Positions 41,286-55,519 of a DNA stretch of 64,000 bases are shown one piece after another. The stretch comes from Roseburia sp. (GTDB taxonomy: Bacteria > Bacillota > Clostridia > Christensenellales > Pumilibacteraceae). Below the pieces are notes generated by a model. That model worked only from the letters and a program-made list of their open reading frames with translations. It made no database searches and was not told where the DNA came from. Location of the stretch: contig JAMPDA010000007.1 in NCBI GenBank assembly GCA_023665905.1, positions 1-64,000 on the forward strand, in the 5' to 3' direction. A program made the translations under genes and the position numbers. Numbering within the stretch: position 1 is the first letter of the stretch; every line of letters starts with the position of its first letter.

Positions 41286-41304
41286 TAAAGAAAATCGATT
41301 TTAC

Positions 41305-41393
41305 GACGGCTCCCTACGCGAGTGCTAACTCACAGGTTCAAGGGTGCTGTCGCGAAAAGCGACATCTCAGCAACTTAAGGTTGCGCCCCTGCA
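41305..41393 (-). promoter_or_regulatory. TPP riboswitch (THI element)
   Basis: Minus-strand motifs in order: CAGGGG near 41388, CTGAGA (41369-41364), CACCC with GAACCTG (41345-41331) and GCGTAGGGA (41318-41310). They fit the TPP aptamer. Binding of thiamine pyrophosphate should favour the downstream terminator and stop thiT expression. Confidence 0.95.
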
Positions 41394-41508
41394 TCTTTTC
41401 CATATTGTAACACGTATATTACCCGATGTCAAACGATTAGCCGCAAAAAACATAAAACGCCCGTACGCATTGCACACGGGCGCAATTATATTCGGGTTTT
41501 CAGGCGCA

Positions 41509-49983: not shown

Positions 49984-50180
49984 TTGACAAAACAGACGCT
50001 CCTGTGGAATTATTATCTTGCCACATAACCTATATCGGAAACGCACTCCAAAGCCACAGTGCGCCATTTTGGCATATCTCCGGCTTTGAAGTGTGTTTAT
50101 CATTCATTGTAGGTTGTGTGGCAACAATTAGGAGATTGCCACTTGGGAGTGTCGTTTCCTGATTGGAACGACACTTTTTT
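49984..50180 (+). ncRNA. Structured leader RNA, candidate riboswitch/attenuator
   Basis: A promoter (TTGACA 49984, AATTAT at about 50008) starts an RNA at about 50018. Stem P1 pairs TTGCCACATAACCT (50018-50031) with AGGTTGTGTGGCAA (50111-50124). Inside, CGCACTCCAAAGCC (50042) pairs with GGCTTTGAAGTGTG (50082), and GCCA/TGGC forms a small top hairpin. GTGGCAA (50118-50124) can instead pair with TTGCCAC at 50136-50142, the same heptamer as in the P1 5' strand. A terminator follows. It fits no class I recognise. The gene below is an LRR lipoprotein. Confidence 0.65.
50148..50180 (+). terminator. Terminator in the leader of the 50198 lipoprotein
   Basis: AGTGTCGTT(T)CC pairs with GGAACGACACT, then six T (50175-50180). 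It lies 18 bp before the ATG, so it must be conditional or leaky for the gene to be expressed. Confidence 0.85.
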
Positions 50181-50197
50181 ATACGGAGCGCTGTATT

Positions 50198-52096
50198 ATG
50201 AAAAAGAAACTCATTGTTTCGCTGATTACCGTCGCGCTCGTTGTTTTAAGCGTTTTTGGTCTGTTCGCCTGCGACGAAAACAACAGCAAAAACGGCGAAG
50301 ACAACGACGCCGCCGACTGCTCGCACAGCTGGAGCGCCTGGCGATCCTTGGGTGCAAATGCGCACGAGCGCACCTGCTCGCTGTGCGGCGAGATCGAATC
50401 GGAAGCGCATACGATCGTAAACAACTCATGCGTCTGCGGATATGCAGCGCCCATAGCCATTACCGCATTGGATCTCGACGCCGCAACTATGACGTTGCGT
50501 ATAGACGAAACCGGAAATCTTGCCGTCACCGTCGAGCCGTCGAGCGAACAAAGCCAACCGCTTAATTGGTCGAGCGGCAATACGGCGGTTGCGACCGTCA
50601 ATAGAGGCGTCGTAACGGGCGTCGGCGAAGGCGCTACGCAGATAACCGTCACGGCGGAAAGCGGCGCGTCCGCAAGCTGCACCGTTACGGTCACGTCGCA
50701 GGAATACTCGGCAGGCTTTACGTTTGCCTCGCTCGGCGCCGGCTATGCCGTCGTCGGCTACGACGGGCATGCCGCCGAAGTGACCGTGCCGTCGAGCCAT
50801 AAAAGCAAGCCCGTTACCGCCGTAAGCGGATTCGACGGGAACACGGAACTCCAAAAAATAATCCTGCCCGATACGATAAACACGATCGGTCAGTCTGCGT
50901 TCGACGGTTGCATCGAACTCGACACGATCGCGATCCCAAACAGTGTGAACAGTATAGGCGCAAACGCGTTTTACGGCTGCACCGATCTCCGCGAGATCAT
51001 GATACCGAACAGCGTAACCGGTATAGGCGCCGATGCGTTCAAAAACTGTACCTTGCTTAAAAAAGTGACCGTATCCGATTCCCTGTCGAGCGCCGATATC
51101 GCCGGCGTGTTCGACGGCTGCCACATAGAGGAAGCGACCGCGCCGATAAACGCGGTAAGCGGCATTCCCCAAACCCATCTCATAAAGATAAAACTGACGA
51201 GCGGATCGAGCATTCCCGACGGTCTGTTTGAAGGGTACGACGCGCTCAGCGAAATAGAAATGCCGAGCACCGTAACGGAAATAGGCGAAAACGCGTTTAA
51301 AAACACGGCGTTGCACGATATATCGGGCATAGACAACGTGACGGAAATAGGCGCAGGCGCATTCTACGACACAAACCTTACCGACTTTACCGTGCCGAGC
51401 GGCGTAACGACCATAAACGCCGATGTTTTTCGCGACTGCACCCTATTGCGCAACTTGGTTATCCCGTCCGGCGTTACGGAGATAAGCGCCGGAGCGCTCC
51501 GCGGTTGCAACGATATTCAAAGCATTACGCTCCCGTTTGTCGGAACGTATAAGGACACGTCCCGCTACGAGCCCAATACGCCGCTCGATGTCTTCGGCGT
51601 GCTTTTCGGATACGAAGTAATACACGACAACAGCCCTGTTTCCAATGCGACCGAATCAAAAAGTTATTCCGAAAGCGGTACGGATACGCATTGCTGGTAT
51701 TACATGCCGCAGACATTGCGGAGCGTGATCTTAAACGGCGATTCCGTTTCTATTCCCGAATACGCTTTCTCGCGGTTCTATATGATAACAAGCGTCACCC
51801 TGCCAGACGGCCTTACGAGCATACCGACGAACGCATTTAGGCTTTGTAACTCATTGACCCATGTCGTGATCCCCAACACCGTAAACACGATCGAGGCTTC
51901 CGCGTTCTACTGCAATGAACTGCCCAAAGTATACTACAAAGGCACTCGTGCGGAGTTTGACCAAATATCAGTATCTCCCGATGAAAACACGGCGTTTATA
52001 AACGCGACGGTATACTGCTACTCCCCGACTACGCCGGCAACGAGCGGCAACTATTGGCATTACGACACCGACGGCACAACGCCCGTCGAGTGGTAA
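50198..52096 (+). CDS. Lipoprotein with Ig-like domain and BspA-type LRRs
   Basis: The 632-residue protein has a signal peptide with lipobox FGLFAC, a Cys/His-containing segment (about 40-85: CSHSWSAWRSLGANAHERTC, then CSLCGE and CVCG), and a BIG2 Ig-like domain (about 87-167: ALDLDAATMTLRIDETGNLAV, ATQITVTAESGAS). BspA-like LRR_5 repeats follow (about 185-590) with the N/D-V--IG--AF-GC pattern. Its final 25 residues carry YSPTTPATSGNYWHYDTDG, shared with the lipoprotein ending at 55519. Such proteins bind host or microbial surfaces. Expression is probably gated by the upstream leader RNA. Confidence 0.85.
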   Translation: MKKKLIVSLITVALVVLSVFGLFACDENNSKNGEDNDAADCSHSWSAWRSLGANAHERTCSLCGEIESEAHTIVNNSCVCGYAAPIAITALDLDAATMTLRIDETGNLAVTVEPSSEQSQPLNWSSGNTAVATVNRGVVTGVGEGATQITVTAESGASASCTVTVTSQEYSAGFTFASLGAGYAVVGYDGHAAEVTVPSSHKSKPVTAVSGFDGNTELQKIILPDTINTIGQSAFDGCIELDTIAIPNSVNSIGANAFYGCTDLREIMIPNSVTGIGADAFKNCTLLKKVTVSDSLSSADIAGVFDGCHIEEATAPINAVSGIPQTHLIKIKLTSGSSIPDGLFEGYDALSEIEMPSTVTEIGENAFKNTALHDISGIDNVTEIGAGAFYDTNLTDFTVPSGVTTINADVFRDCTLLRNLVIPSGVTEISAGALRGCNDIQSITLPFVGTYKDTSRYEPNTPLDVFGVLFGYEVIHDNSPVSNATESKSYSESGTDTHCWYYMPQTLRSVILNGDSVSIPEYAFSRFYMITSVTLPDGLTSIPTNAFRLCNSLTHVVIPNTVNTIEASAFYCNELPKVYYKGTRAEFDQISVSPDENTAFINATVYCYSPTTPATSGNYWHYDTDGTTPVEW

Positions 52097-53801: not shown

Positions 53802-54689
53802 ATGTACAAAGCGATAAAAACCAAGTTGTATGTTGTACTCATTGCTTTGGTATGTTTAATTGCGGTGTTTCTTTGCGCTTGCTCGGGCGGCGCCGACGGA
53901 GCAAACGGGATCGACGGCACAAACGGCAAAAGCGCGTATGAGATTTGGTTAGACGCCGGTCACTCGGGCACGGAAACCGACTTTTTAGCGTGGTTAAAAG
54001 GCTCGGACGGCTCGGACGGCGATAACGGCAGTAAAGGCGATAAGGGCGATAAAGGAGATAAAGGCGAAACGGGCGCGCAAGGCGGCAACGGACAGAACGG
54101 TCAAAACGGCTTAAGCGCATACGAAATTTTTCTTACATACTACCCCTACTATACGGGCACGGAAGAACAATGGATAAACGGGCTTATAAACGGTGAATTG
54201 AAAGTTCATACGGTCACATTCAAGACGGAAGTCGCCGACGATATCGTAAAATACGTTTTTGACGGATATGCTCTTGCCGATATACCGGCAGTCCCCGAAA
54301 AAGAGGGTCAAACGAGCGCGGCATGGAGCGTTACCGATTTTTCGAGCATAACGCAAGACCTGGAAGTAAATGCCGTGTACGACATGCGAAAGTATGTTAC
54401 TTTCCATAACGAGTTCACCGACGACGAGGACACAGTCATCACAGTAAACTACGGCGACGCCATAACCGATATCCCTCAGATAACCGCAAAAGTCGGCAAC
54501 GACAGCCGCTGGTCTATAACCGATTTCAGTGAAATTAAAACGGACTTGACAGTCGAAGCGATCTACGAAACGCAAGGCTTGCAATTTACGCTCGTTTCGC
54601 GCAACGAATACAAGGTTGCCCGCGGCGACGATATGGATCGAAACACAAGCGAGCTGTTATCCCGTCTGAACACGACGGCAAAGCTGTGA
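53802..54689 (+). CDS. Collagen-repeat lipoprotein, N-terminal part of a frameshifted gene
   Basis: The 295-residue frame has the lipobox VFLCAC, a GANGIDGTNGKSAYEI module, collagen-like Gly-X-Y repeats (GDKGDKGDKGETGAQGG, about 65-100), a second AYEI/GTEEQW module and two InlB-like segments. It ends abruptly at a stop in the middle of an LRR-family linker. The same linker continues in the +2 frame as AVIPSEHDGKAVTV into the next feature, so one base is missing near 54651-54654. Together they encode a lipoprotein like the one at 50198. It may be a pseudogene, a slippage product or a sequence error. Confidence 0.75.
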   Translation: MYKAIKTKLYVVLIALVCLIAVFLCACSGGADGANGIDGTNGKSAYEIWLDAGHSGTETDFLAWLKGSDGSDGDNGSKGDKGDKGDKGETGAQGGNGQNGQNGLSAYEIFLTYYPYYTGTEEQWINGLINGELKVHTVTFKTEVADDIVKYVFDGYALADIPAVPEKEGQTSAAWSVTDFSSITQDLEVNAVYDMRKYVTFHNEFTDDEDTVITVNYGDAITDIPQITAKVGNDSRWSITDFSEIKTDLTVEAIYETQGLQFTLVSRNEYKVARGDDMDRNTSELLSRLNTTAKL

Positions 54690-55519
54690 CGGTGATAGAC
54701 AGTTACGCTTTTAATAACGTTATGAGTTCGGATTACTTGACTCCCACAAGCACCTGTATCGGCATTTATATTCCCGACAGCATAGTAGAGATACGTGAAT
54801 ACGCATTCCAACGCTGCGACGCCTTGACAGACATTAAAATACCGGACAGCGTCAAAACCATAGGCACAGGCGCCTTTAGTGGTTGCTATAGCTTGGAACA
54901 TATAGAGCTCGGAAACGGGCTTACGGACATCGGCGGCAGCACGTTCGCTCTTTGTTCTTCTTTACAGGATATAGAATTACCGAACAGCGTTGTGAATATG
55001 GCTATTTCCGCATTCAATTATTGCTATAATCTATCGACTCTGCGGATCCCGAGCAGTGTGCTGTCTATCGATAGCGACAACGTCTTCAACAATCAGTTCA
55101 GCGGGCAACGAATAGAAGTAGCCGCAGGCAACCCCAATTACTGCAGTATCGACGGGATCCTGTATAATAAATCGAAAACGGAAATTATCTGCGTGCCGGC
55201 GTACATTCAAGGCACGATCACAATACCCGAAAGCGTCACATCTATTAGCGAATACGCTTTTGGGGGGAGATCGAATATTACAGGCATAATATTACATAAA
55301 AACACAAGCATATCTCGTTACGCATTTAATGCATGCGACGAACTCAACACAATTTATTTCTACGGGAACGAAGCCGAATTCGATGCAATGAGTATCGATT
55401 ATGAGGGCAATGAGGCTATCCTCGCCGCCGACTTGTATTTCTACTCCCCGACTACGCCGGCAACAAGCGGCAATTATTGGCATTACGACACCGACGGCAA
55501 AACGCCCGTCGTGTGGTAA
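54686..55519 (+). CDS. BspA-like LRR domain, C-terminal part of the frameshifted lipoprotein
   Basis: The 277-residue frame (family sequence starts at about 54653) contains BspA-type LRR_5 repeats: ITDIKIPDSVKTIG-type units such as ALTDIKIPDSVKTIGTGAFSGC, and ends with YSPTTPATSGNYWHYDTDG, the tail also found at 52096. It lacks its own ribosome site and signal peptide, so alone it is unlikely to be exported. The frame break is described under the 53802 feature. Confidence 0.75.
   Translation: MTVIDSYAFNNVMSSDYLTPTSTCIGIYIPDSIVEIREYAFQRCDALTDIKIPDSVKTIGTGAFSGCYSLEHIELGNGLTDIGGSTFALCSSLQDIELPNSVVNMAISAFNYCYNLSTLRIPSSVLSIDSDNVFNNQFSGQRIEVAAGNPNYCSIDGILYNKSKTEIICVPAYIQGTITIPESVTSISEYAFGGRSNITGIILHKNTSISRYAFNACDELNTIYFYGNEAEFDAMSIDYEGNEAILAADLYFYSPTTPATSGNYWHYDTDGKTPVVW

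Follow-up and report, generated by a model that had tools for sequence, protein, structure and literature searches.

A probable transcription-attenuator leader RNA family in Clostridia and their phages

Transcription-terminating riboswitches are built as a 5' leader in which an upstream hairpin domain precedes a switch strand, a terminator and the gene, the switch strand joining either the upstream domain or the antiterminator. T-box leaders of Bacillota likewise choose between terminator and antiterminator, and in BglG/LicT-type RAT antiterminators, each a single short protein-bound stem, the terminator is blocked by an overlapping stem. The leader of ribosomal protein L20, an autogenous attenuator, places long-range pairing beside a terminator. 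The phage put and EAR RNAs, associated with phage or envelope genes, carry a conserved stem close to the start of the RNA; they modify RNA polymerase and act over long distances on several terminators.

The leader RNA described here resembles each of these systems in part. It lies within the window, i.e., the whole stretch of 64,000 nucleotides that was analyzed, and a first-pass annotation had proposed it to be a riboswitch or attenuator outside the recognized classes. The essentials of this proposal, namely that a cis-regulatory leader is conserved, has mutually exclusive helices and a terminator, and lacks a counterpart among known classes, held up, but the specific competition between helices that had been suggested did not. 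Judged from sequence comparison, the leader very probably represents a hitherto unlisted leader RNA family of transcription attenuators in Clostridia and their phages.

Layout of the leader in the window

The sole promoter-like site in a 1-kb region (49984-50013, forward strand, as for all leader features below) consists of TTGACA (49984-49989), an 18-nt spacer and a TG-extended -10 element AATTAT (50008-50013). It sets the transcription start at ~50018-50020, which makes the 5' strand of the outer stem the start of the RNA, as the first-pass annotation had claimed. In 100 related leaders the promoter follows the consensus TTGA, usually a 17-nt spacer, and TGnTATAAT, with the -10 element located at -10 to -5 relative to the first nucleotide of this stem.

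The sequence TTGCCAC occurs twice (50018-50024 and 50136-50142) with GTGGCAA between the copies (50118-50124), exactly where they had been reported, and the outer stem closed by GTGGCAA is present together with its nested helices, spanning 17 bp rather than the 14 bp noted before. In the folds, the 5' strand of this stem, P1 (50018-50034), pairs with 50108-50124, the latter strand carrying UGUGU-N-GCA, the sequence best conserved across the family. An asymmetric internal loop (5' NAAUA, 3' GGA-like), for which a K-turn or UAA/GAN motif is conceivable, separates P1 from the P2 helices (50039-50098; 50039-50047/50090-50098 and 50049-50055/50082-50088, likewise from folds), which exceed the length seen in most relatives. 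The apical region (50063-50081) comprises a hairpin, P3 (GCCA-UUU-UGGC), and a strand UGGCA-UA-UCUCC (50070-50081) complementary to GGAGA-U-UGCCA (50131-50141) in the linker, TGCCA at 50137-50141 being the complement of the apical TGGCA (50070-50074).

The linker itself, CAAUUAGGAGAUUGCCACUUGG (50125-50146), follows P1 directly and would act as the switch strand, partnered by the apical loop in one state and by the terminator's 5' arm with its loop in the other. In the antiterminator (50125-50165), CAAUUAGGAGA (50125-50135) is predicted to pair with UUUCCUGAUUG (50155-50165) over 11 bp. The intrinsic terminator (50148-50180), already recognized in the first-pass annotation, folds into a stem of ~50148-50159/50165-50176 followed by a U-run.

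The RNA from 50010 to 50190 has a minimum free energy of -73.1 kcal/mol compared with -42.2 +/- 3.8 kcal/mol in 200 dinucleotide shuffles (z -8.2), none of which was as stable. The duplex of the apical region with 50125-50146 was calculated at -19.4 kcal/mol, the whole antiterminator duplex at -18.4 kcal/mol and the terminator alone at -16.3 kcal/mol; these close values (-16 to -19 kcal/mol) provide the balance that a switch needs.

A cmscan of the whole window against Rfam 15 returned no family at the leader, and the leader alone gave no match even at E<=5, in agreement with the earlier assignment to no known class. When eight phage and Clostridia loci were compared with Rfam at E<=3, no leader came near a gathering threshold, the best overlap with any leader being Phe_leader with 30 bits against a gathering score of 55 (E 0.46). 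Our search of the open-access literature found no description of such a leader family. Elsewhere in the window, the scan detected a tmRNA, one tRNA, a TPP riboswitch barely over threshold (41293-41400, reverse strand) and an abiF RNA (RF03085; 21634-21670, reverse strand), a member of an sRNA family named for Abi-type genes.

Covariation and the two partners of the linker

Homologues extracted from the window's own genome and from relatives share an identical layout with different stem sequences. Among 14 aligned homologous leaders, from which the covariance model R1 was built, 24 of 38 pairs had changed on both sides, giving a covariation score of 0.37 compared with 0.09-0.14 for slid partners. 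In an alignment of 100 distinct leaders, which was fitted to the covariance model and thus leans toward the modelled helices, this rose to 37 of 38 pairs with 91% of cells pairing and a score of 0.65 (<=0.11 when slid; reached in 0 of 500 shuffles). P1 contributed 12 of 13 pairs changed on both sides (91% of cells pairing among relatives) and the terminator 10 of 10; the P2 pairs covary in the family as well.

Since the larger alignment is model-fitted, more weight is given to tests free of that bias. We calculated duplex energies between leader segments with their own and with swapped partners for 94 non-redundant leaders, relatedness among the leaders being only partly controlled. Apical loop and linker paired at -16.0 kcal/mol with the own partner and at -11.3 kcal/mol when swapped (z -15.3); linker and terminator 5' arm plus loop did so at -16.2 and -10.5 kcal/mol, respectively (z -17.4). 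Neither difference was reached in any of 10,000 permutations. The controls stayed flat (apical loop with terminator, z +1.3; P2 5' strand with linker, z -0.8), and with swaps limited to dissimilar partners the own partner was preferred in 90 of 92 leaders in both tests. Replication on 62 leaders not previously used gave z -11.1 for apical loop and linker and z -15.4 for linker and terminator, again with flat controls. Both pairings have a median length of 14 bp and share linker bases, and are therefore mutually exclusive. This supports the linker after P1 as a true switch strand co-evolving with the apical loop and with the terminator 5' arm and loop. An exclusive terminator and antiterminator are thus both preserved by evolution, and on these sequence data the family behaves like a transcription attenuator.

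The switch originally put forward, in which the second TTGCCAC takes GTGGCAA away from P1, has to be rejected as not conserved: any of the first P1 hexamers recurs within the linker in only 3 of 94 leaders, and complementarity between linker and P1 3' strand is weak (own -5.2 compared with -4.6 kcal/mol).

Distribution and downstream genes

In a DNA search of 60 relatives, several genomes yielded matches to the leader's 3' part, some of them in several copies; two further matches (L045 and L049) were dropped as resembling chance or coding matches. At the level of the genus, R1 detected the leader in 10 of 20 genomes; for family, order and class (Clostridia) the counts were 26 of 74 (with as many as 10 copies in one genome), 59 of 396 and 23 of 196, respectively, whereas none of ~380 sampled genomes from other classes had it. 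Among 398 genomes drawn across the phylum, that of the window itself was the sole match, and this draw doubles as a specificity control of the model. The leader family is real, coherent and absent from Rfam.

A pattern scan of named contigs yielded at least 118 stretches, mostly from metagenome-assembled genomes of gut Clostridia and matched for the most part by R1 among those listed; the isolate among the listed matches is Cuneatibacter caecimuris DSM 29486. The same scan of viral sequences returned 37 IMG/VR contigs, ~35 of which score >=43 bits with R1. Named examples are few because neither INPHARED nor PLSDB gave a blastn match to a phage-type leader. Shortly downstream of one viral leader copy (L331) lies a phage gene (9916-12615) with a full-length match to PHROG 4291, a family annotated as RNA-dependent RNA polymerase, which accords with a phage origin. 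In another viral contig (L340, 6722-6860), a long inverted repeat of the form TTGCCACACAAG...CTTGTGTGGCAA can be read on either strand and scores weakly with the model; it is probably the end of an element and not a leader.

As previously annotated, the gene behind the window leader (50198-52096, forward strand) encodes an LRR lipoprotein: the 632-aa product combines BspA-type LRR (PF13306) and Big_2 (PF02368) domains with a lipoprotein-like signal, its start codon lying at 50198. For 87 of 100 related leaders, a gene with a ribosome-binding site starts no more than 90 nt downstream, at a median distance of 23 nt. A lipobox is present in 44 of 85 distinct downstream products compared with 14 of 245 background ORFs (Fisher p 3e-19), and a hydrophobic signal or transmembrane segment in 66 of 85 compared with 69 of 245. 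The lipoprotein products include BspA-type LRR, collagen-like, Big_2 and Listeria-Bacteroides-repeat types; zinc-ribbon membrane proteins and phage genes were found as other products.

A second leader copy on the same contig (G000:C47:72454-72619, reverse strand), ~8.5 kb past the window end, precedes a collagen-like/LRR lipoprotein (MKTRGKLRC...GACGNNGRDG). A relative of this product is encoded within the window (53802-55519, forward strand) by two overlapping ORFs in different frames (53802-54689 and 54686-55519), the split reflecting a frameshift, a sequencing error or a decaying gene; no leader of the family stands ahead of it. In a further genome (G847:C5:90007-90381, reverse strand), two complete leaders, each with promoter and terminator, are arranged in tandem ahead of one secreted-protein gene, possibly providing two-input control.

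Candidate sensors and comparison with known systems

In the mechanism we propose, a sigma-70-type promoter would start the RNA at the first base of one long hairpin composed of P1, internal loop, P2 and apical loop/P3. The subsequent linker (ACAAU...GGAG...) has two complementary partners, namely the apical loop and the terminator 5' arm plus loop. If the apical loop captured it, either in a long-range pseudoknot or through an exchange of strands with P3, the terminator would form and the gene would be off. A free linker would instead pair with the terminator 5' arm as this emerges, ahead of 3' arm synthesis, and the resulting antiterminator would let the gene be read. This gene starts a few tens of bases further on and most commonly codes for a surface lipoprotein or membrane protein. 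We infer this polarity, in which the captured linker means off, from the arrangement. Apical loop and linker pair over 10-21 bp, with ~4 nt available to bridge the length between the base of P1 and the tip of a ~24-bp helix, so that a sharp bend or partial opening of P1 would be required; the bend is possibly located at the asymmetric P1-P2 loop. At its start the linker moreover seems to repeat the P1 5' strand, and this could initiate strand exchange.

As to what is sensed, it may tentatively be proposed that a Clostridia RNA-binding protein or RNA polymerase recognizes P1 together with the following ACAAU, i.e., protein-controlled antitermination. The highest conservation resides in paired P1 and in the CAAU right after it: ACACA/UGUGU-N-GCA is 86-100% identical despite being paired, neighboring pairs are free to vary, and the UGU of the P1 3' strand is more conserved than its partners. 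A large regulon of unrelated accessory genes fits this reading as well. Against it, the P1 5' strand is also the initial transcribed region and may be conserved for that reason.

The conserved sequence being paired rather than an unpaired pocket, a protein or RNA polymerase that recognizes the hairpin is slightly favored over a small-molecule aptamer. A strict riboswitch, in which a metabolite or ion bound at P3 and the apical loop (GCCAA, GGUAAA, GGCAU) or at the P1-P2 loop would decide on linker capture, is accordingly a somewhat doubtful reading, albeit one that the layout of aptamer-like hairpin, competing linker and terminator would suit. Covariation links both halves of the apical region (z -11.9), and most leaders have a GC/GG-Y-A-like apical motif, kept only loosely. 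Unlike in known aptamers, however, hardly any unpaired position is >=85% conserved beyond the linker CA, GgAG and the T-run, and the downstream genes, mostly for lipoproteins, share no common pathway.

It is improbable that the terminated leader of ~160 nt is a trans-acting small RNA with incidental readthrough into the gene. Own promoter, own terminator and several copies per genome would be expected of such an RNA, but gene and ribosome-binding site follow closely in the 87 of 100 cases given above, with a strong functional bias, and a co-evolving antiterminator would be useless to a stand-alone sRNA. An element acting at the DNA level, as inverted-repeat operator or end of a mobile cassette, is similarly unlikely. 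A dyad AUUGU-N6-ACAAU surrounds the P1 3' strand and reads AAUGU-N6-ACAUU in one leader group; this T-A to A-T change (77 of 86 compared with 58 expected) is only suggestive because it represents covariation at one position only. Leaders are also reused ahead of different genes and in phages. In contrast, compensatory changes involving G-U pairs, the antiterminator and the U-run are meaningful only in RNA, and an unsystematic look noticed no transposase or target duplication beside leaders. Ribosome-mediated attenuation via a leader peptide is scarcely credible. AUG or UUG occupies nucleotides 1-3 in many leaders, but the frame from nucleotide 1 closes after anything from 4 to >50 codons, an ORF of >=8 codons led by a Shine-Dalgarno sequence was present in only 8 of 100 leaders (none in 92), and no conserved translated leader ORF was found.

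Returning to the linker-based attenuator, we consider it rather likely that it constitutes a new class of switch RNA in gut Clostridia and their phages, in which a large regulon, made up of surface lipoproteins and phage accessory genes, would be set by the choice of the linker between hairpin loop and terminator in response to an envelope- or infection-related signal. If so, the surface lipoproteins found in many uncultured gut Clostridia and the accessory genes of their phages would share a single RNA-level control, one for which Rfam holds no model. The up to ten copies per genome would delimit the regulon in one step, and the two co-evolving partners of the linker make the switching mechanism directly testable through compensatory mutation.

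Compared with transcription-terminating riboswitches, the leader differs in having neither an Rfam match nor a conserved unpaired pocket or shared downstream pathway, and in an upstream domain that is one long hairpin whose loop is itself the partner of the linker. T-box identity was rejected, as no T-box covariance model matched and the downstream genes encode lipoproteins and membrane proteins rather than functions related to tRNA or amino acids. From the L20 leader it is distinguished by sequence and genes; one locus (L239) has a separate weak L20-leader-like match, below gathering. Unlike RAT, its antiterminator strand has a second co-evolving partner ~50-60 nt upstream, and in contrast to put and EAR RNAs it carries a dedicated terminator and an alternative antiterminator immediately after the hairpin.
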